Below are positions 33,132 through 56,842 of a stretch of DNA of 64,000 bases, piece after piece; the stretch's first letter is position 1, and every line of letters begins with the position of its first letter. Position numbers and translations under genes: made by a program. The notes beneath the pieces are model-generated. The model had not been told where the DNA came from. It saw only the letters and a list, made by a program, of their open reading frames with translations, and ran no database searches. Source of the stretch: Streptomyces sp. NA02950 (GTDB lineage Bacteria > Actinomycetota > Actinomycetes > Streptomycetales > Streptomycetaceae); NCBI RefSeq assembly GCF_013364155.1, contig NZ_CP054916.1:4026501-4090500 (forward strand). Reading direction: 5' to 3'.

Positions 33132-33429
33132 TCGACCGATCAACACCGTGACCACCGGTGTGACCTGCCGTCAGAGCCCTGGGCCGGGTGGGGGTGTGCG
33201 AGGCGGGCCCGGCGCCAAAGCGGGGCCAAAGGCTGAACGGGGGATCAGCGGAAATGACTACACGGGGGAGGGTACACGTCGTGTCAAACCGTGACATAAA
33301 GGGTCCAGATAACGATGTCCAGCATGTGATCCAGCCAAGGAAGGCGACCCTTACCGACGTACGATGGTCATGGGACAACCGGTCGGCACCGACTGTCCAG
33401 GAGCGCCGCCTCAAGGGAGGTCCGAAGCA
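33132..33429 (+). promoter_or_regulatory. Upstream region of korAB
   Basis: 298-bp gap without a credible gene. It contains AT-richer stretches (GAAATGACTACACGGG, GTGACATAAAGGGTC) likely to include the korA promoter. A GGGAGG ribosome site precedes the GTG at 33430. No riboswitch-like pairing or long palindrome was seen. Confidence 0.4.
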
Positions 33430-35374
33430 GTGACCAGCCAGGTCAGTAGCCCGGCCGAGCAGGCCGAACCAGCCGATCAGCAGGGCGGGCCCGGGCCCGC
33501 CGGGGGGCAGCGAACGCCGGACGGGGCCAAGGAGATCCGCCGTCTGGACCGGGTGATCATCCGGTTCGCGGGTGACTCGGGTGACGGTATGCAGCTCACC
33601 GGCGACCGGTTCACCTCCGAGACGGCGTCGTTCGGCAACGACCTGTCCACCCTGCCGAACTTCCCGGCCGAGATCCGCGCCCCCGCCGGAACGCTGCCGG
33701 GAGTCTCCAGCTTCCAGCTGCATTTCGCCGATCACGACATCCTCACCCCCGGCGACGCCCCCAATGTGCTGGTCGCGATGAACCCGGCCGCGCTCAAGGC
33801 CAATCTGGGCGATGTGCCGCGCGGGGCCGAAATCATCGTCAACACCGATGAGTTCACCAAGCGCCCGATGGCGAAGGTGGGCTACCAGACCAGTCCGCTG
33901 GAGGACGGCTCGCTGGACGGCTACAACGTCCACCCGGTGCCGCTGACCACCCTGACCATCGAGGCCCTGAAGGAATTCGGGCTGTCCCGGAAGGAGGCGG
34001 AGCGCAGCAAGAACATGTTCGCGCTCGGCCTGCTGTCGTGGATGTACCACCGGCCCACCGAGGGCACCGAGAAGTTCCTGCGCCAGAAGTTCGCGAAGAA
34101 GCCGGAGATCGCGGAGGCCAACGTCGCGGCGTTCCGGGCGGGCTGGAACTTCGGCGAGACCACCGAGGACTTCGCCGTCTCCTACGAGGTGGCACCGGCC
34201 ACCACCGCCTTCCCGGCGGGCACGTACCGCAACATCTCCGGCAACCTGGCCCTGTCCTACGGGCTGATCGCGGCCTCGCGCCAGGCCGATCTGCCGCTGT
34301 TCCTGGGCTCGTACCCGATCACCCCGGCCTCCGACATCCTCCATGAGCTGTCGCGCCACAAGAACTTCGGTGTGCGCACCTTCCAGGCCGAGGACGAGAT
34401 CGCGGGCATCGGTGCCGCGCTGGGCGCCGCCTTCGGTGGGGCACTGGCCGTGACCACCACCTCCGGCCCGGGTGTGGCGCTGAAGTCCGAGACCATCGGT
34501 CTCGCGGTGTCGCTGGAGCTTCCGCTCCTGGTGATCGACATCCAGCGCGGCGGGCCCTCCACCGGTCTGCCCACCAAGACCGAGCAGGCCGATCTGCTCC
34601 AGGCCATGTACGGGCGGAACGGCGAGGCGCCGGTGCCGATCGTGGCCCCCCGGACCCCGGCCGACTGTTTCGACGCCACCCTGGACGCGGCCCGGATCGC
34701 ACTGGCCTACCGCACCCCGGTCTTCCTGCTCTCCGACGGCTATCTGGCCAACGGCTCGGAGCCCTGGCGGATCCCGGAGATCGACGATCTGCCCGATCTG
34801 CGGGTGCAGTTCGCCACCGGGCCCAACCATGTGCAGGCCGACGGCACCGAGGTGTTCTGGCCGTACAAGCGCGACCCGGAGACCCTCGCCCGCCCCTGGG
34901 CCGTGCCCGGCACGCCCGGTCTGGAGCACCGCATCGGCGGGATCGAGAAGCAGGACGGCACCGGCAACATCTCCTACGACCCGGCCAACCACGACCACAT
35001 GGTCCGCACCCGCCAGGCCAAGGTGGACGGCGTCAGGGTGGCCGACCTCGAGGTGGACGACCCCACCGGCGACGCCCGCACCCTGGTGCTGGGCTGGGGT
35101 TCGACGTACGGGCCCATCACCGCGGCGGTCCGCCGGGTGCGGGGCGCGGGCGACCGGATCGCCCAGGCCCATCTCCGCCATCTCAACCCCTTCCCGGCCA
35201 ACCTCGGCGAGGTGCTGGGCCGTTACGACAAGGTGGTGGTGCCCGAGATGAACCTGGGCCAGCTCGCCACCCTCATCCGCGCCCGCTATCTCGTCGACGC
35301 CCGCTCCTTCACCCAGGTAAGGGGGCTGCCGTTCAAGGCCGAGCAGCTCGCCGCGGCCCTCAAGGAGGCCATCG

Positions 35375-35382
<8 letters not shown>
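33430..35382 (+). CDS. korA: 2-oxoacid:ferredoxin oxidoreductase, alpha (fused gamma-alpha) subunit
   Basis: Cytoplasmic subunit (650 aa) of a 2-oxoglutarate- or pyruvate-type ferredoxin oxidoreductase, which converts a 2-oxoacid and CoA to acyl-CoA, CO2 and reduced ferredoxin. Residues about 40-210 form the gamma domain (VIIRFAGDSGDGMQLTGDRF). Residues about 225-600 form the alpha domain (LGSYPITPASDILHELSR, FQAEDEIAGIGAALGAAFGG, QRGGPSTGLPTKTEQADL). GTG start with GGGAGG. It overlaps korB by eight bases. Actinobacterial homologues are KorAB-type; 2-oxoglutarate is the likely substrate. Confidence 0.93.
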
Positions 35383-36454
<1,072 letters not shown>

Positions 36455-49849: not shown

Positions 49850-50632
49850 ATGCCAGCCGAACGCACCCGCGACCGCACCCGCGAGCACGCCCCGCCGGTC
49901 GCCGCCGCGCGCCGCCGCAGGCTCCGCGCCGACCAGGCGCGGCAACTCGCCGATCTGCTCCGCCACCAGGTCCTCACCGGCGGCTTTCCCCGGGGTGTGC
50001 TGCCGCTGGAGGACGCGCTCGGCGCGGACTACGGCGCCTCCCGCAACACCGTGCGCCAGGCGCTCGACCTGCTGCGCGCCGAACGCCTGGTGGAGCGGCT
50101 GCCGGGGGTGGGGACGGTGGTCGTGGGCGAGAAGTACCGGCACGGCCTCGACCGGCTGATGGGGCTGGCCGAGACCCTGCACGAGCACGGCCGGGTCAGC
50201 AACGAGGTACGGACCGTAGGACCCGTGCCCGCGCCGTCCTGCGTCGCCGACCGGCTGCGCGTCCCCGCCCGCGCGGACGTCCTCTACATCGAGCGGCTGC
50301 GGCGGCTGGGCGGGCTTCCGCTCTCCCTCGACCTCACCTACATCCCGATGGACATCGGCGCCGAGCTCCTCGGCGCCGACCTGGAGAACACCGATGTCTT
50401 CCGGCTGATCGAGAAGATCACCGGACAGGATCTGGGCACCGCCGAGATCACCCTCGAGGCCGTCAACGCCGACGCGCACTCCGCCGCCGTCCTTCAGGCA
50501 CCGCGCGGTGCCGCCGTCCTGATGACCGAGCGTCTCACCCACCTGGCCGACGGCCGCCCCGTGGACCTGGAGTTCATCCGGTTCCGCGGCGACCGCATCA
50601 CCATGAGCGGCCAACTGCGCCGCACCGGCTGA
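49850..50632 (+). CDS. GntR/HutC-family regulator of the AprAB-like operon
   Basis: Transcriptional regulator of 260 aa. Winged helix: RQLADLLRHQVLTGGFPRGVLPLEDALGADYGASRNTVRQALDLLRAERLVERLPGVGTVV. UTRA ligand domain from about residue 100: VLYIERLRRLGGLPLSLDLTYIPMDIGAELL and LEAVNADAHSAAVLQAPRGAAVLMTERLTHLADGRPVDLEFIRFRGDRI. GGAG lies about eight bases before ATG 49850. It is the first gene of the downstream set and most likely senses a substrate or product of it. Confidence 0.92.
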   Translation: MPAERTRDRTREHAPPVAAARRRRLRADQARQLADLLRHQVLTGGFPRGVLPLEDALGADYGASRNTVRQALDLLRAERLVERLPGVGTVVVGEKYRHGLDRLMGLAETLHEHGRVSNEVRTVGPVPAPSCVADRLRVPARADVLYIERLRRLGGLPLSLDLTYIPMDIGAELLGADLENTDVFRLIEKITGQDLGTAEITLEAVNADAHSAAVLQAPRGAAVLMTERLTHLADGRPVDLEFIRFRGDRITMSGQLRRTG

Positions 50633-50717
50633 CGCCCCTGCCCCGCCCCCGTTCCGTCCCTGTTCCGCCGCGGTTCCACCCCTTTCCGTTCCCGTTCCGC
50701 CCTCCCTGGAGACAGCC
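50633..50717 (+). other. Pyrimidine-rich leader with GTTCC repeats before the ferredoxin gene
   Basis: 85-bp gap that is almost all C and T on the plus strand. GTTCC occurs five times (in CGTTCCGT, TGTTCCGC, GGTTCCAC, CGTTCCCG, CGTTCCGC). It ends with GGAG before ATG 50718. Confidence 0.5.
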
Positions 50718-50945
50718 ATGCCTCTCGCGCCCCAGCGTGCCGACGTGCCCGTGACGATCGACGAGTCGAAGTGCATCGACGGCTGCACCCTGTGCGTGGA
50801 CATGTGCCCCCTCGACTCGCTCGCGATCCACCCCGACAGCGGCAAGGCGTACATGCACGTGGACGAGTGCTGGTACTGCGGCCCGTGCGCCGCCCGCTGT
50901 CCCACCGGCGCGGTCACGGTCAACATGCCCTATCTCCTGCGGTGA
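50718..50945 (+). CDS. AprB-like ferredoxin with two [4Fe-4S] clusters
   Basis: Small electron carrier (75 aa). Cluster 1 ligands C19, C23, C26 and C30 (CIDGCTLCVDMCP) include an extra residue between the first two Cys. Cluster 2 ligands are C51, C54, C57 and C61 (CWYCGPCAARCP). The end GAVTVNMPYLLR and the ECWYC start of cluster 2 resemble the beta subunit of adenylylsulfate reductase, shortened. It is expected to pair with the flavoprotein encoded four genes downstream. Eleven bases before the binding-protein gene. Confidence 0.88.
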   Translation: MPLAPQRADVPVTIDESKCIDGCTLCVDMCPLDSLAIHPDSGKAYMHVDECWYCGPCAARCPTGAVTVNMPYLLR

Positions 50946-50956
50946 AAGGCTCTCCG

Positions 50957-52315
50957 ATGCAGCGCACCACCCTCCCGGCCACTGTCGCCACCGGCGCACT
51001 GCTGCTGTCCCTCACCGGCTGCGGCGGCGACGCGGAAGCCGGCGGCAAGACCGTGACGGTCACCGTCGGCTACCAGTCCAAGACGATCAACACCGTGACC
51101 GCGGGCACCCTGCTGCGCGCGCTCGGCTCCTTCGAACGCGAACTGCGCGCCCTCGGCCGCCGCGACGGCCACACCTACAAGGTAAAGTGGCAGGACTACG
51201 CCACCGGCGCGCCGATCACCGCGCAGATGGTCGCCGGGAAGGTCGACATCGGCTCGATGGGCGACTTCCCGCTCCTGATCAACTCCGGCCGCGGCAAGCA
51301 GCTGAACGCCCCGACCCGTCTGGTCTCCGTCACCGGCTACAACCTGCGTGGTGGCCTCAACACCATCGTCACCCGCCCCGGCTCCGATCTTCGCGAACTG
51401 TCCGAGCTGCGCGGCAAGCAGGTCTCCACCAGTGTCGGCTCGGCCGCCGACGGCACGCTCGTACGGGCCCTCCAGCGGGCGGGCATCGACCCGGAAGACG
51501 GTATCCACAAGCTCAACCAGCAGCCCGCCGTCGGTGCTTCGGCCCTCCAGGCGGGCAGCGCGGACGCCCTCTCGCAGTTCGTGGCCTGGCCGGGGCTGCT
51601 CGCCTTCCAGGGCAAGGCCAAGGCGCTGTACGACGGGGCGCGGCTGAACCTCCCCACCTTCCACGGTGTCACCACGCGCGCGAAGTTCGCCGATGAGCGC
51701 CCGGCCGTCGTCAAGGCGTTCCTCGCCGCCCAGATCGACGCCACCCGCTATCTGCGCGCCCACCCGCTGCCCGCCGCGCGGAAGGTCGCGAAGGCCACCG
51801 GGCTGCCACCGGAGGTGGTCTACCTCTACAACGGCGCCGGCGGTATCGCCACCTTCGACCCCACCCTCAAGCCCTCGCTGATCGCGGCCCTCAAGAAGGA
51901 CGTCCCGGTGCTGCGCGCGGCCAAACTGGTCGGCCCGGTGGACGTGAACTCCTTTGTCGACGACCGTTACATCAAGCGGGCGTACGGAAGCACGGACGCC
52001 TACGCGAAGGCGCTGCGCACCACACCGCCCGCTTCGTCCAGTCAGATCTGGCTCAAGGGCGAGGAGCGGACCCGGAGTTTCCGCACCCCCGCCGAGCTGC
52101 TGCGGTTCGCCAGCACCCACCGCGACCTGATCCGGGCCGCGTATGTGCCCGACGCCGCCACCGGCACCCTCTGGTACGCGGACCGGGCGGTCTGGGTCAA
52201 GGACGGCGCCGGGCTGCGCGCCTTCGTCACCCCGGCGAACGCCCGCACCTGGAGCGCCTCCCACCCCGGTGCCCGCACGGTCTCGTACGCCACGGCCCTG
52301 AAGGAGTCGGGATGA
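50957..52315 (+). CDS. ABC importer substrate-binding lipoprotein with extra C-terminal domain
   Basis: Periplasm-equivalent binding protein (452 aa) of the sulfonate/nitrate/taurine class. Lipobox LTGC at C22. The class II SBP body has TVGYQSKTINTVTAG, QMVAGKVDIGSMGDFPLLI and QAGSADALSQFVAWPG. It ends near residue 350. A further about 85 residues (PAELLRFASTHRDLIRAAYV...GTLWYADRAVWV...PANARTWSASHPGARTVSY) form a separate domain that recalls NosL-type metal-binding lipoproteins, a tentative likeness. ATGA overlap with the permease. Confidence 0.88.
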   Translation: MQRTTLPATVATGALLLSLTGCGGDAEAGGKTVTVTVGYQSKTINTVTAGTLLRALGSFERELRALGRRDGHTYKVKWQDYATGAPITAQMVAGKVDIGSMGDFPLLINSGRGKQLNAPTRLVSVTGYNLRGGLNTIVTRPGSDLRELSELRGKQVSTSVGSAADGTLVRALQRAGIDPEDGIHKLNQQPAVGASALQAGSADALSQFVAWPGLLAFQGKAKALYDGARLNLPTFHGVTTRAKFADERPAVVKAFLAAQIDATRYLRAHPLPAARKVAKATGLPPEVVYLYNGAGGIATFDPTLKPSLIAALKKDVPVLRAAKLVGPVDVNSFVDDRYIKRAYGSTDAYAKALRTTPPASSSQIWLKGEERTRSFRTPAELLRFASTHRDLIRAAYVPDAATGTLWYADRAVWVKDGAGLRAFVTPANARTWSASHPGARTVSYATALKESG

Positions 52316-53196
52316 CGGCGCCCACGACTCCGCTGCGGCCGACGTCCGCACCCGCCGCCCCCGCCGCGCAGCGCCCGCGCCGCCGCCCCTGGCCCCGCTA
52401 CGCCCTGCGCGCCGGGTCGCTGCTGGCCGCCCTCGGCCTGTGGCAGCTGCTCACCTCGCTCGACGTCAATCTGTGGCTGCGCTTCGCGCAGTTCCCGACC
52501 GCGACCGACGTCGCCCGGGAGTTCGCCGACCGCGTCGGCACCGACGCCTACTGGCAGGACCTGACCGACAGCCTCACCCGCATCCTCACCGGGTTCGCGC
52601 TCGCCGCGGTCCTGGGCGTGGCGGTCGGCACCGCCATCGCCCGTTCACACCTCGCGTCCGACCTGCTGAGCCCGGTCCTCGAAGTCCTGCGCCCCATCCC
52701 CGCCATCGCACTGGTCCCCGTGGCGATCCTGCTGTTCCCCAGCAATGAGCAGGGGATCGTCTTCATCACCTTCACCGCCGCCTTCTTCCCGGTCATGGTC
52801 AGCACCCGGCACGCGGTCCGCGCGCTCAGCCCGGTCTGGGAGGAGGCGGTGCTGACCATGGGCGGCGGCCGCCGGCGCGTGCTGGGCTCGGTGGTGCTGC
52901 CGGGCGCGCTGCCCGGCATCCTCGGCGGGCTCTCCGTCGGCATCGGCGTCTCGTGGATCTGTGTGATCTCCGCCGAGATGATCTCCGGCGCGTACGGCGT
53001 CGGTTACCGCACCTGGCAGGACTACACGATCGTCGACTATCCGGGCGTCTTCGTCGGCATGACCACCATCGGTCTGCTCGGCTGGCTCACCTCCACCGCG
53101 GTCGAGCTGGCCGGGCGGCGGCTGACCCGATGGCTGCCCCGCACCGAGACCGCGGGACCGGCAACGCCCCGGCGCAAGGAAGCAGGTACCCCGTGA
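52312..53196 (+). CDS. ABC importer permease (SsuC/TauC type)
   Basis: Six-helix importer permease of 294 aa. Domain features: GFALAAVLGVAVGTAIARS, EVLRPIPAIALVPVAILLFPSNEQGIVFITFTAAFFPVMVSTRHAVRALSPVWEEAVLTMG, and the EAA loop GALPGILGGLSVGIGVSWICVISAEM. AAGGAG precedes the ATG; the stop overlaps the ATPase GTG. Import of an oxyanion or sulfonate is likely by family. Confidence 0.92.
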   Translation: MTAPTTPLRPTSAPAAPAAQRPRRRPWPRYALRAGSLLAALGLWQLLTSLDVNLWLRFAQFPTATDVAREFADRVGTDAYWQDLTDSLTRILTGFALAAVLGVAVGTAIARSHLASDLLSPVLEVLRPIPAIALVPVAILLFPSNEQGIVFITFTAAFFPVMVSTRHAVRALSPVWEEAVLTMGGGRRRVLGSVVLPGALPGILGGLSVGIGVSWICVISAEMISGAYGVGYRTWQDYTIVDYPGVFVGMTTIGLLGWLTSTAVELAGRRLTRWLPRTETAGPATPRRKEAGTP

Positions 53197-53984
53197 GCAC
53201 GCCCGATGTCGCCACCACCCCCGCCCCGCCGAGGGACCGGGCCGCCCCGCCGGGCGTACGGCTGCGCCTGGAGGACGTCGCGCTCGGCCGCCCCGGCGCG
53301 CCCGTCCTCCATGGCCTCGACCTGGAGGTGGCCCCCGGTGAACTCCTCACTGTGGTGGGCCCGTCCGGCTGCGGCAAGTCCACCCTGCTGCGCACACTGG
53401 CCGGGCTGCTGCCGCCCCTCGGCGGACGGGTCACCCAGGACGGCGCACCCATCACCCGGCCGCACGCCGACCGTGCGCTGGTCTTCCAGGAGGACGCGCT
53501 GCTCCCGTGGCGCACCGTGCGTGCCAACGTCGAACTCCCGCTTGCCATTAGGGGCGTGCCGCGGGCCGAGCGCCGCGCCCGGGCCGAGGGGTGGCTGGAG
53601 CGGGTCGGGCTCGGCGACCACCTGCGGCGATACCCGCACCGTGTCTCCGGCGGCCAGCGGCAGCGGGTGCAGCTCGCCCGCGCGCTCGTCGGCGAGCCGC
53701 GCGCGGTCCTCATGGACGAGCCGTTCGGCGCGCTCGACGCGCAGACCCGGTCCGGGATGCAGCGGCTGCTGGTCGAGGTGTTGCGCGGCACCCGTGCCAC
53801 GGTCGTCTTCGTCACCCACGACGTGGACGAGGCGCTGTTCCTCGGTGACCGCGTCGCCCTGCTCGGCGGTGGGGCGGAGGCCGGCCGGGTGCTGGACGTA
53901 CCGCATCCGCGGGAGCGCGCCGCTCATGACGCCGCCGCGACCGTCGCGCTGCGCCGCCAGGTCCTCGCATCCCTCGGTATGTGA
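53193..53984 (+). CDS. ABC importer ATPase (SsuB/TauB type)
   Basis: ATP-binding subunit (263 aa). Walker A GPSGCGKSTLL, Q-loop FQEDALLPWRTVRANVELPL, signature VSGGQRQRVQLARAL, Walker B RAVLMDEPFGALDAQT and switch VTHDVDEALFLGDRV match the nitrate/sulfonate/taurine branch. GTG start overlapping the permease stop (GTGA), eleven bases before the flavoprotein gene. Confidence 0.94.
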   Translation: MSTPDVATTPAPPRDRAAPPGVRLRLEDVALGRPGAPVLHGLDLEVAPGELLTVVGPSGCGKSTLLRTLAGLLPPLGGRVTQDGAPITRPHADRALVFQEDALLPWRTVRANVELPLAIRGVPRAERRARAEGWLERVGLGDHLRRYPHRVSGGQRQRVQLARALVGEPRAVLMDEPFGALDAQTRSGMQRLLVEVLRGTRATVVFVTHDVDEALFLGDRVALLGGGAEAGRVLDVPHPRERAAHDAAATVALRRQVLASLGM

Positions 53985-53995
53985 AAGGTCCCGCC

Positions 53996-56842
53996 ATGGA
54001 GACCACGAACAGCACGGAAAGCCCACAGAGCACGGAAAGCACGGAAAGCACGGAGCATTCGGACATCATGGAGATCCCCGCACCCGAGACGGTCGAGGAG
54101 CTGTCCTGCGACGTCCTCGTCATCGGCGGCGGCACGGCCGGCACCATGGCGGCGCTCACCGCCGCCGAACACGGCGCCTCGGTCCTCCTCCTGGAAAAGG
54201 CGCACGTCCGGCACTCCGGCGCGCTCGCCATGGGCATGGACGGCGTCAACAACGCGGTCGTCCCCGGCCGGGCCGAACCCGACGACTACATCGCCGAGAT
54301 CACCCGAGCCAACGACGGCATCGTCGACCAGTCCACCGTCCGCCAGACCGCGACCCGCGGCTTCGACATGGTCAAGCGGCTGGAGCGGTACGGCGTGAAG
54401 TTCGAGAAGGACGAGCACGGCGCGTACGCGGTCCGCCAGGTGCACCGCTCCGGCTCGTACGTCCTGCCGATGCCCGAGGGAAAGGACGTCAAGAAGGTCC
54501 TCTACCGGCAACTGCGCCGCCGCGAGATGCGGGAGCGGATCCGCATCGAGAACCGCGTGATGCCGGTGCGGGTGCTCACCTCAGACGGCCGGGCCGTGGG
54601 CGCCGCCGGATTCCACACCCGCACCGGGGATTTCGTCGCCGTCCGGGCCGGGGCCGTGATCCTCGCCACCGGCGCCTGCGGCCGGCTCGGCCTGCCCGCC
54701 AGCGGCTATCTCTACGGCACCTACGAGAACCCCACCAACGCGGGCGACGGCTACGCCATGGCGTATCACGCGGGCGCCGAACTCACCGGTATCGAATGCT
54801 TCCAGATCAACCCGCTGATCAAGGACTACAACGGCCCGGCCTGCGCCTATGTCGCCAACCCGTTCGGCGGCTACCAGGTCAACCGGCACGGTGAGCGCTT
54901 CGTCGACTCCGACTACTGGTCGGGCCAGATGATGGCCGAGTTCGCGGCGGAAGTGGCGAGCGAACGCGGTCCGGTCTATCTCAAGCTCAGCCACCTCCCG
55001 GAGGAGTCCGTGGCGGCGCTGGAGTCGATCCTGCACTCCACCGAACGCCCCACCCGCGCCACCTTCCACGCCGGACGCGGCCATGACTACCGCACCCACG
55101 ACGTGGAGATGCACATCTCCGAGATCGGGCTGTGCGGCGGCCATTCGGCCTCCGGCGTACGGGTCGACGAGCACGCCCGCACCACGGTCCCGGGGCTGTA
55201 CGCCGCCGGTGATCTGGCCTGCGTACCGCACAACTACATGATCGGAGCCTTTGTCTTCGGCGATCTGGCGGGCGCAGACGCTTCCCGGCACCGCCGTTAC
55301 GAGGGCGAACTGCCGCCCGACCAGCTCGCCGAGGCCCATGAGCTGATCTACGCCCCGCTGCGGAACCCCGACGGCCCGCCGCAGCCCCAGGTCGAGTACA
55401 AGCTGCGCCGCATGGTGAACGACTATGTCGCCCCGCCCAAGAGCGGCGCCCGGCTCTCCCTCGCCGTCGAGGCGTTCGAGCGGATGCGCCGGGACCTCGC
55501 CGAGATGGGCGCCCAGACCCCCCATGAGCTGATGCGCTGCGCCGAGGTGAGCTTCATCCGCGACTGCGCCGAGATGGCCGCCCGCTCCTCCCTCGCCAGG
55601 ACCGAGAGCCGGTGGGGGCTGTACCACGAGCGCACCGACCATCCGCAGCGGGACGACGCGTCCTGGCTGCACCATCTGGATCTGCGCAAGTCGGCGTCGG
55701 GAGCGATGGAGTTCACCGCGCGGCCCGTGGCGCCCTACCTCGTCCCGGTGGCGGAGTACTCCCCCGTCGGCGGGCCGTCCCGGCGGCTCGGCGAGGTGCA
55801 CCCGGAGCACGTCGCCACGGCCGGGCCGCGCGAGACCCCGCCGAGGGGGGCGGAGCGGGCGCCCGGCACGGACGGCGGCGGGACCGGGGCATCCGCCACC
55901 GCCTCCCCGCGCATCCTCGAACTTCTCGCCCTCGCCGAGGAGCAGCCGGGTCTGCCCGCACTCCAGCCCTATCTGGCCGACCCCGACCCCGCGGTCCGCC
56001 GGTCCGCCGTCGCCACGCTGACCGAGACCGCGCCCTCGGGCACCGGTCCGGCGCTCGCCGCGGCGCTGGCCGACCCGGACGCCGAGGTGCGGGCCGGGGC
56101 CGCCGCCTCGCTGCGGGAGCTGGTCGAGGTGCTGCCGCCCGAACCGGACCTGCGCGATCCGCTGGTGCGTGCCCTGGAGGTGTCCGATCCGACGGTGCGC
56201 GCGGCGGCGCTGGAGGTGCTGCGCGCGCTGCGGCTCGGCGGGGCGCGGCTGTTCGCACGGGCGCTGACGGACTCCGAGACCGAGGTGCGCCTGCAGGCCG
56301 TACGGGCCCTGGTCTCCGTCGACGCCCTCGACGCGCTGGCGCCCGCCACCGCCGACCCCTCCCGCGAGGTGCGGGTGGCGGCGGCGGGTGCGCTGGCCAC
56401 GCTCGCGGCCCCCGCCGCCGACGGCCGCGCCGCCCGGGCGCGTGAGCTGCTGGCTCCGCTGCTGCGCGACCGGGACGTGCTCGTACGGGCCGCCGCCCTG
56501 GAGGCGCTGGCCGCGGCCGGTTGCCCACCGCCGCTCGACGCCGAGGCGGTCGCGGCGCTGGGCGACCCCGCGTGGCAGGTGCGCAAGGGAGCGGCGACGG
56601 CGCTGACCGCCGCCGAACCGGAGTTCGGTATCCCGGCGCTGGCGGACGCCCTGGCCGATCCGCACGCCGATGTCCGCAAGGCGGCCGTGCTGTCGCTGTC
56701 GCCGCACGCGGACCGCCGGCCCGCCGCCCACGACGCCCTCGCCACGGTGCTCACCGATCCGGACGCCGATGTCCGTGCCTACGCGTCCAGGGCCGTGAAG
56801 GGCGGGGGTACGGCGTCCGCCCGGGAGGGGCAGACGGTGTAG
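53996..56842 (+). CDS. AprA/fumarate-reductase-like flavoprotein fused to HEAT repeats
   Basis: Fusion protein of 948 aa. After a Ser/Thr/Glu-rich start, FAD-binding motif VLVIGGGTAGTMAAL (GGGTAG at 44-49) begins an AprA/succinate-dehydrogenase-like flavoprotein. It continues through GAVILATGACGRLGLPASGY, TNAGDGYAMAYHAGAEL, ECFQINP, VPGLYAAGDLACVPHNYMIGAFVFGDLAG and a C-terminal helical domain ending near residue 620. A Gly/Pro linker then leads to about nine HEAT-like units (650-945) marked by L-x-D-P-x-x-x-V-R-x-x-A. The adjacent AprB-like ferredoxin is the probable electron partner. Substrate unknown; APS or another sulfur or carboxylate substrate is inference. ATG 53996 preferred over GTG 53981. 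Confidence 0.88.
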   Translation: METTNSTESPQSTESTESTEHSDIMEIPAPETVEELSCDVLVIGGGTAGTMAALTAAEHGASVLLLEKAHVRHSGALAMGMDGVNNAVVPGRAEPDDYIAEITRANDGIVDQSTVRQTATRGFDMVKRLERYGVKFEKDEHGAYAVRQVHRSGSYVLPMPEGKDVKKVLYRQLRRREMRERIRIENRVMPVRVLTSDGRAVGAAGFHTRTGDFVAVRAGAVILATGACGRLGLPASGYLYGTYENPTNAGDGYAMAYHAGAELTGIECFQINPLIKDYNGPACAYVANPFGGYQVNRHGERFVDSDYWSGQMMAEFAAEVASERGPVYLKLSHLPEESVAALESILHSTERPTRATFHAGRGHDYRTHDVEMHISEIGLCGGHSASGVRVDEHARTTVPGLYAAGDLACVPHNYMIGAFVFGDLAGADASRHRRYEGELPPDQLAEAHELIYAPLRNPDGPPQPQVEYKLRRMVNDYVAPPKSGARLSLAVEAFERMRRDLAEMGAQTPHELMRCAEVSFIRDCAEMAARSSLARTESRWGLYHERTDHPQRDDASWLHHLDLRKSASGAMEFTARPVAPYLVPVAEYSPVGGPSRRLGEVHPEHVATAGPRETPPRGAERAPGTDGGGTGASATASPRILELLALAEEQPGLPALQPYLADPDPAVRRSAVATLTETAPSGTGPALAAALADPDAEVRAGAAASLRELVEVLPPEPDLRDPLVRALEVSDPTVRAAALEVLRALRLGGARLFARALTDSETEVRLQAVRALVSVDALDALAPATADPSREVRVAAAGALATLAAPAADGRAARARELLAPLLRDRDVLVRAAALEALAAAGCPPPLDAEAVAALGDPAWQVRKGAATALTAAEPEFGIPALADALADPHADVRKAAVLSLSPHADRRPAAHDALATVLTDPDADVRAYASRAVKGGGTASAREGQTV

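Follow-up and report, generated by a model that had tools for sequence, protein, structure and literature searches.

Soil sulfur is mostly organic, chiefly in the form of sulfate esters and sulfonates, and the aerobic desulfonation routes described in the pertinent passages of PMC4267179 are oxygenases. Those passages also cover the asfRABC genes of Pseudomonas putida S-313, which encode a substrate-binding protein (SBP), an ATP-binding cassette (ABC) transporter, a reductase/ferredoxin pair, and a LysR regulator; asfA mutants lose growth on aromatic sulfonates and keep it on aliphatic ones, AsfAB is ascribed electron transfer, and asfA is reported from Cupriavidus, Pseudomonas, and Variovorax. 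An AprA-type enzyme put to assimilatory use is described, in the part of PMC10322725 devoted to it, for the 3′-phosphoadenosine 5′-phosphosulfate (PAPS) reductase of Methanothermococcus thermolithotrophicus. In Fervidacidithiobacillus (Acidithiobacillus) caldus, plasmid cargo comprising ferredoxin/adenosine 5′-phosphosulfate (APS) reductase/GntR genes and a TauT-type transporter forms two operons predicted to serve organosulfonate uptake and assimilation, a prediction made in a paragraph, a figure legend, and the conclusion of PMC12375680 (2025). The operon considered here occupies positions 49850-56842 of a 64,000-nucleotide (nt) stretch (hereafter, the window) of the 9.77-Mb genome of Streptomyces sp. 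NA02950 (NZ_CP054916.1, positions 4,026,501 to 4,090,500).

We give about an even chance to the reading favored here, in which the operon serves to import and reduce an organosulfur oxyanion, an organosulfonate being the likeliest. The SsuA/TauA-like ABC system would import the organosulfur compound, and the GntR/UTRA regulator would sense that compound or one of its products. Electrons from NAD(P)H would pass through a ferredoxin reductase, necessarily encoded elsewhere in the genome, to the two-cluster ferredoxin and from it to the flavoprotein; sulfite would then be released at the flavin and enter ordinary cysteine synthesis, while the HEAT repeats may stabilize the complex of flavoprotein and ferredoxin or assist in loading its clusters. 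All six genes are on the plus strand and, as read from their open reading frames (ORFs) and domains, are arranged as follows:

49850-50632, plus strand: GntR/HutC-type regulator with a GntR helix-turn-helix and a UTRA ligand domain, 260 amino acids (aa) (Pfam UTRA 6e-33, GntR 3e-13)
50718-50945, plus strand: 2x[4Fe-4S] ferredoxin, 75 aa (Pfam Fer4_7 9e-11)
50957-52315, plus strand: ABC SBP, 452 aa, with an SsuA/TauA-like domain (~30-340) and a C-terminal domain that is NosL-like in relatives
52312-53196, plus strand: ABC permease, 294 aa (BPD_transp_1 4e-17)
53193-53984, plus strand: ABC ATPase with a GTG start at 53193, 263 aa (ABC_tran 6e-32)
53996-56842, plus strand: flavoprotein of the AprA superfamily fused to HEAT repeats (NF010374, NF006131, tree)

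The ORFs and domains confirm the positions and identities given to all six genes by the original prediction, as well as its description of the last five as tightly packed. The gap of 85 nt between the regulator and ferredoxin genes is followed by one of 11 nt before the SBP gene, 4-nt overlaps between the SBP and permease genes and between the permease and ATPase genes, and a gap of 11 nt before the flavoprotein gene if the latter starts at ATG 53996. This start is likely, with GTG 53981 and ATG 54068 as alternatives; the database record of an identical flavoprotein (P0001) has 924 aa and thus starts at 54068. Residue numbers below refer to the 953-aa frame from GTG 53981 (subtract 5 for ATG 53996). 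In this frame, the catalytic part spans residues ~30-592 and the HEAT repeats ~659-944, so that the predicted HEAT fusion is real.

The flavoprotein carries FAD_binding_2 and Succ_DH_flav_C domains and scores 1613 bits against NF010374 (PRK13800; cut-off 1196; residues 30-940) and 861 bits against NF006131 (PRK08275; cut-off 587). The residues, as detailed below, do not support the name that NCBI gives this family, fumarate reductase/succinate dehydrogenase flavoprotein subunit. Scores for other curated models fall far short: 126 bits for the dissimilatory AprA model TIGR02061 (cut-off 641.75), 271 bits for the PAPS reductase model NF005331 (cut-off 557), and 150 bits for TIGR01812 (cut-off 567). 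The best sequence match in the PDB is the PAPS reductase MtPAPSR (8a8o), followed by AprA, with SdhA lower. In a maximum-likelihood tree of 29 proteins, the flavoproteins of this operon and its relatives (collectively, the module) form a clade of 17 rows (support 100/99) that is sister to AprA plus PAPS reductase (9 rows, 100/100) and lies apart from three SdhA/FrdA/NadB-like proteins of the window's own genome. The flavoprotein thus does not group with a known dehydrogenase, an outcome that the original prediction had left to phylogeny, but joins the AprA/PAPS reductase clade while staying outside both of its members; by this placement it appears to represent a clade of its own, the third in the AprA superfamily.

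The inspection of active-site residues, proposed along with the tree, revealed the loss of both known sets of substrate-binding residues. Seventeen family sequences were aligned using the numbering of Archaeoglobus fulgidus AprA, and a larger alignment of 108 rows, preselected for similarity, combined the window with 107 loci, one of which (L001) is the window's own. Trp234 and Arg265, which we take to be APS-binding positions of AprA, are, like Gln145, invariant in all six AprA rows; in 17/17 module flavoproteins, Trp234 is replaced by Tyr, Arg265 by Leu, Gln145 by Val, and Gly274 by Cys. Of the residues presumably located near the flavin, Asn74 is retained as Asn90 (17/17 aligned members and 108/108 rows), and His388, present in 108/108 rows, aligns opposite the GSH/GGH His of AprA and PAPS reductase, the position of AprA His398. 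In the structural part of PMC10322725, Gln145 is listed as an APS-binding residue of AprA and Lys120/Arg121/Ser122 as PAPS reductase traits. The module flavoprotein has Ser/Tyr/Val at the latter positions. As for the HPTG His, RDxVxR Arg, and GANRL Arg, presumed here to be the signature residues of SdhA and FrdA, the module family has Asn277 in place of the His, a gap instead of the RDxVxR stretch, and PHNYM in place of GANRL; all three motifs are intact in the L002 protein of the same genome and in 11 of 19 other hits from 10 genomes. At least 97% identity is seen at 227 positions over the 108 rows, and Cys273, Cys288, Cys385, Cys529, Asn277, His155, Tyr160, Tyr248, and His388 are identical in every row. 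Conservation of the pocket to this degree in different phyla speaks for a single substrate class common to all, one other than APS, PAPS, or a dicarboxylate.

The module is a widely conserved bacterial operon, broader than could be told from the window by itself. Among 8000 scored candidates in a protein search, 6557 were relatives of the flavoprotein with E values of at most 1e-20, and matches were found in 54 plasmid records, 49 of them covering most of the query. These plasmids come from Actinobacteria, Cyanobacteria, Alpha-, Beta-, and Gammaproteobacteria, and Acidithiobacillus, with one match, from Ilyobacter (24.6% identical), being an outgroup, and the module was seen on Pseudomonas, Burkholderiaceae, rhizobial, and some cyanobacterial replicons. 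One record labelled Stenotrophomonas sp. (P0016) is 94% identical to the Streptomyces flavoprotein and is perhaps mislabelled or contaminated. The distribution is patchy: counting the window's own genome, the flavoprotein scores above the cut-off in 12 of 396 genomes sampled across the phylum and in 64 of 199 sampled Streptomyces genomes.

Gene content was compared in two sets, in which many loci are close kin. The proteobacterial set comprised the best 80 of 587 candidates, selected by two family motifs in a scan of genome contigs, so that the invariance of those motifs is preselected. The ferredoxin gene directly follows the flavoprotein gene in all 80 of these loci, and within at most 9 kb on the same strand are genes for HEAT (78/80), GntR (77/80), SBP (64/80), and DUF971 (62/80). 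GntR, ferredoxin, HEAT, SBP, permease, and ATPase occur all together in 56 loci, and the exact order GntR-flavoprotein-ferredoxin-SBP-permease-ATPase-HEAT-DUF971 is found in 39. The actinobacterial set of 21 stretches (the window and 20 from other genomes) was processed with a simple gene-calling script based on GC content by codon position, which found the flavoprotein and SBP in 21/21 and GntR in 20/21. This script under-calls small and overlapping genes and recognized the ferredoxin in just 13 of the 21; a pattern search recovered it in 19 of the 20 non-window stretches. Gene calls in some further loci, L204 and L208 (below) among them, come from the same script. The ATPase and permease were detected by tblastn in 11 and 10, respectively, of 11 shorter actinobacterial loci. 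The ferredoxin gene is upstream of the ABC genes in the window and likewise, to the extent that genes were called, in the remaining actinobacterial copies. Because the same gene set recurs across actinobacterial and proteobacterial loci, the operon is not a chance grouping. Neither locus clustering nor the actinobacterial gene calls revealed a further constant enzyme, the few other genes shared by 11-13 loci being taken to reflect a shared chromosomal position.

The importer is of the sulfonate type. The best structural matches of the SBP are SsuA and then TauA; a profile of 8 SBP relatives ranks SsuA first, and one of 19 ranks TauA first. The underlying model has a mean predicted local distance difference test (pLDDT) score of 78.5, and residues 29-353 were well tested by VIA-align, in which the C-terminal domain had no separate fold match. 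Five SsuA-family SBPs that score above the curated cut-off (170-245 bits) are encoded near module copies (two in L021 and one each in L046, L076, and L103). A true SsuA-family protein is encoded in Nostoc, 26 nt ahead of the flavoprotein gene, and in the Ralstonia loci L076 and L103 an SsuA-family SBP adjoins the module, the usual SBP not being found in those stretches. Apart from these SsuA-type proteins of Ralstonia, no single recurring substitute transporter was seen in the 15 loci that lack the usual ABC genes.

The C-terminal domain attached to the SsuA-like SBP is a candidate NosL-like domain (window positions 51944-52315; L023:12126-12470; L025:12019-12348). Against the Pfam gathering threshold of 24 bits, two of five relatives score 25.2 and 30.5 and two cyanobacteria 24.1 and 29.2; the window's domain scores 12.3, and none was seen in Tsukamurella, the other actinobacterium compared, or in Methylobacterium. 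No Cys was seen by eye in the window's domain, which bears on a copper link through that domain. A thiamine link, raised by the NMT1/THI5 domain name and by genes for thiC, thiO, thiS, and thiazole synthase next to the copy in Rhizobium, was dropped because two other rhizobial copies have different neighbors and SsuA-like proteins share the NMT1/THI5 domain. Among the annotated relatives, a LysR gene is next to the flavoprotein gene in two cyanobacterial plasmids. The C-terminal half of the Pseudanabaena LysR (L109:5673-7673, minus strand) is ~30% identical to the module SBP, and the Leptolyngbya LysR (L110:5307-7343, minus strand) shares 48% identity with the Pseudanabaena LysR along its length; the arrangement joins a regulator to a cytoplasmic SBP copy.

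Sulfur-related genes accompany some copies of the module. Their frequencies are counts with no background rate, in sets of 106 and 95 loci from which several of the query proteins were themselves drawn and with PLSDB plasmid gene tables that are incomplete, so they are supporting signs rather than tests. TauE/SafE-family exporters were found in 6 of 106 loci, and the queries, picked from annotation, came from five of these six; such an exporter adjoins the module in four (Rhizobium, Pseudanabaena, Leptolyngbya, and Aquabacterium), two of which also have a YeiH-type exporter (3/106 overall). NtaA/DmoA-type monooxygenases and TauD were each detected in 5 of the 95. Three closely related Burkholderiaceae loci have, next to the module, an operon for a cargo cysteine desulfurase, a family 2A encapsulin, and serine acetyltransferase (L046:14935-19302, L051:13313-17626, and L060:13348-17667); the same operon accompanies an AsfABC-like set in L204 (8904-13492). 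In L051, the encapsulin-cargo cysteine desulfurase scores 963 bits (cut-off 800) and the family 2A encapsulin 521 (cut-off 380). The three desulfurases are 93-98% identical, and in L046 an SsuA-type gene separates the module from the encapsulin operon.

The cluster ligands of the ferredoxin are Cys19, 23, 26, and 30 and Cys51, 54, 57, and 61, with Trp52 following the first Cys of cluster II. In an alignment of nine members, the Cys residues are invariant and the end is PYLLR-like. Trp beside cluster II was present in 108/108 ferredoxins matched by a pattern that allowed W or F alone at this position (7 of 115 loci were unmatched), and the same CW is found in six of six AprB sequences; a Trp (Trp42) is proposed to take part in electron transfer in the account of PAPS reductase in PMC10322725. 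The "AprB-like" label of the original prediction is therefore apt for the two clusters and this Trp but not beyond them, as the protein scores 32 bits against the AprB model TIGR02060 (cut-off 135.65) and ends at PYLLR, lacking the C-terminal tail by which the six AprB sequences run on for tens of residues. The cluster I spacing in the window (50772-50807) is C-x3-C-x2-C-x3-C rather than the usual C-x2-C, and the first spacing is C-x5-C in 85 of 108 relatives. As for the source of electrons, 4 of 106 loci have a ferredoxin-NADP reductase gene next to the module, FdxA is near it in 14 of the 80 proteobacterial loci, and a large protein that we read as NfnAB-like (its best NCBIfam matches are below the cut-off) is present in 8 of the 80, which suggests electron flow from NAD(P)H via ferredoxin to the flavoprotein. 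Two genes in the window (33364-36454) resemble by eye the alpha and beta subunits of 2-oxoacid:ferredoxin oxidoreductase, a possible source of reduced ferredoxin.

The HEAT repeats are encoded by a separate gene in Proteobacteria and Cyanobacteria and are fused to the flavoprotein in Actinobacteria. Being fused in one lineage and neighbors in the others, the two indicate a joint function, as far as can be judged from gene arrangement. An exception to the actinobacterial pattern is the second module copy in one Streptomyces genome (L172; G587:C1:8737500-8752500), where a 588-aa flavoprotein frame is followed by a separate 308-aa frame that belongs to the flavoprotein-HEAT protein cluster. In three cyanobacterial copies, a gene for an Mrp/NBP35-type iron-sulfur carrier is downstream of HEAT (L021:15394-16401, L109:10957-12066, and L110:11018-12124). 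It occupies the place taken by DUF971 (PF06155) in many Proteobacteria and perhaps encodes a dedicated cluster-loading factor.

A more specific and more doubtful proposal, which we put forward tentatively, is that this branch of the AprA superfamily cleaves organosulfonates reductively without O2: reduced ferredoxin would charge the flavin adenine dinucleotide (FAD), whose N5 would attack the sulfonate sulfur or a neighboring atom, and sulfite and the desulfonated product would leave. If so, a flavin-dependent reductive desulfonase with HEAT repeats as its dedicated scaffold would be spread across Actinobacteria, Cyanobacteria, and Proteobacteria, and some cyanobacteria would control it by a LysR regulator carrying its own copy of the SBP. 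The module may represent a third chemistry of the AprA clade, beside APS and PAPS reduction, and its probable role is to allow aerobic soil bacteria to obtain sulfur from organosulfur compounds; as a conserved flavoprotein-ferredoxin cassette with an importer, it provides defined genes and residues for a possible new way of freeing sulfur.

Several observations weigh against a sulfonate-reducing pathway. The substrate-holding Arg265 of AprA corresponds to Leu in the module, which makes an AprA-type flavin-sulfite step uncertain, and ferredoxin reductases can work in both directions. The software warned of long branches meeting both in the 29-protein tree and in a tree with one extra row (the AsfA candidate described below), which gave the same placement. 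A Foldseek search with the AlphaFold model of the flavoprotein ranked 8a8o first, succinate dehydrogenase/fumarate reductase (SDH/FRD) chains from rank 3, and AprA at 13; because the model is of low confidence (mean pLDDT 65, low in the middle), these ranks are weak support. The SBP scores 122 bits against the SsuA model TIGR01728 (cut-off 163.5), and for the permease, ATPase, and regulator all substrate-specific matches stay below the cut-off: nearest are SaoP, nitrate, and taurine permeases, the taurine ATPase (224 bits; cut-off 357), and PhnF and HutC, respectively. Control by GntR, not by a LysR protein of sulfate starvation, points to a specific inducer. Exporter, monooxygenase, and TauD genes adjoin a minority of loci, and the genes flanking the operon in the window, one fumarylacetoacetate hydrolase-like and, by eye, a putative lipoprotein gene and nuo-like genes, are uninformative on sulfur.

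Of the other readings, the best-surviving, though still unlikely, is that the flavin attacks a sulfur atom with an easier leaving group than carbon, the substrate being another sulfur oxyanion such as an organosulfate, sulfamate, S-sulfonate, thiosulfate, or polythionate. The clade, the importer, and the sulfur context fit such compounds as well as sulfonates, and cleavage of S-O, S-N, and S-S bonds is chemically easier than that of C-S bonds. The SBPs speak for sulfonates instead: SsuA-family members above the cut-off stand beside some module copies, and the top structural matches of the window's SBP are alkanesulfonate binders.

Less likely again is that the flavoprotein and ferredoxin are an auxiliary electron-transfer pair feeding a sulfonate monooxygenase encoded elsewhere, the role given to AsfAB in the passages of PMC4267179 cited above, where asfRABC has the same kinds of parts; the module might even be a strict Asf system if the published AsfA belongs to its family. 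In line with this, SsuD-like proteins are more common in operon-bearing genomes than in other genomes of the genus (52/64 vs. 73/135; Fisher p 2.6e-4, uncorrected for kinship or genome size), with 0 of 199 SsuD-like hits passing the curated cut-off. On the other hand, with NtaA/DmoA-type and TauD genes each in 5 of 95 loci, there is no constant oxygenase neighbor, and the 227 highly conserved positions are more like those of an enzyme with its own substrate. Variovorax paradoxus locus L204 provides an AsfA candidate, by gene order alone: its flavoprotein-ferredoxin-SBP set follows the asfABC order. In the tree, with the published AsfA sequence not in the comparison, this candidate is placed, by a very long branch, outside the clade of AprA and the module. 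Of 12 genomes searched, 3 have it, and it was absent from the two Cupriavidus and four Pseudomonas genomes tested, all of which carry the module; this absence, in genera reported for asfA, favors the module as the Asf system, with the limit that species and strains differ from the published ones and do not include C. metallidurans. Conversely, Variovorax, Polaromonas, Hydrogenophaga, and Paraburkholderia, which lie near the published asfA genera, are represented among the candidate's best 120 relatives. The name AsfA is on none of these 120, nor on any of the best 120 relatives of the Cupriavidus module flavoprotein. Two distinct flavoprotein-ferredoxin systems thus exist side by side, either of which may be the true Asf set. 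The window's genome has a second, AsfAB-like flavoprotein-ferredoxin set (L208; G000:C1:722500-737500), 60% identical to that of Variovorax, near which TauD-like, NtaA/DmoA-like, ABC ATPase, and binding protein genes were recognized by eye.

An organic-acid dehydrogenase or reductase, as implied by the database name, is very unlikely. It would account for the shared FAD_binding_2 and Succ_DH_flav_C domains and for the Foldseek order of that low-confidence model, with SDH/FRD chains right after PAPS reductase and ahead of AprA, but not for Asn277 in place of the HPTG His, the absence of the RDxVxR stretch and of the GANRL Arg, the TIGR01812 score of 150 vs. 567 bits, or a tree that places the flavoprotein with AprA. 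Of the substrates named in the original prediction, a sulfur oxyanion or sulfonate is thus favored by the AprA-clade pair, the sulfonate-type importer, and the minority of sulfur-related neighbors, and an organic acid is weakened. Like the SDH/FRD reading, an assimilatory APS or PAPS reductase with its own ferredoxin as a stand-in for CysH is disfavored by residues, curated scores, and the tree and is extremely improbable: PAPS reductase 8a8o is the top match by sequence and fold and a relative outside the module family sits with cysC and cysD in Ilyobacter, but Arg265, Trp234, and Gln145 are changed in 17/17, no cysC, cysD, or sat neighbor is listed in the (incomplete) gene tables of annotated relatives, a dedicated importer makes no sense for APS, and a CysH-like gene elsewhere in the genome (220 bits; cut-off 235) agrees with the predicted distinctness from assimilatory CysH.

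The description of the operon as an undescribed system needs qualification: a search of the open-licence literature found no experimental study of the module, but the NF010374 and NF006131 models, the asfRABC gene set, and the prediction in the cited passages of PMC12375680 precede it. The caldus cargo resembles the module in its parts, and its plasmid pTcM1 matches locus L024, an apparent relative; HEAT is a separate gene in L024, and the passages of PMC12375680 on this cargo contain no residue or phylogenetic analysis. With SsuABC and TauABC, the module shares an SBP, permease, and ATPase of the same transporter group, differing in the extra C-terminal domain of the SBP and in having no SsuD/SsuE or TauD in the operon. 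The PAPS reductase of M. thermolithotrophicus (PDB 8a8o; PMC10322725, in the part on that enzyme) is the best PDB match of the flavoprotein both by sequence and by Foldseek. Dissimilatory AprAB, a sister clade, likewise pairs an FAD flavoprotein with a two-cluster ferredoxin that has the conserved Trp, and the Asn74 and His398 positions correspond, whereas the module lacks the APS-binding residues and the AprB tail and has a HEAT partner (fused or separate) and a dedicated importer. The differences from asfRABC are the GntR/UTRA regulator in place of LysR and the HEAT and DUF971 partners, of which the asfRABC passages of PMC4267179 make no mention; the reductase-next-to-ferredoxin arrangement is seen in proteobacterial copies, where the ferredoxin gene directly follows the flavoprotein gene, whereas in the window it stands four genes before it. 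What asfRABC and the module have in common is a reductase, a ferredoxin, an SBP, an ABC transporter, and a single regulator, along with a role in sulfur recovery.

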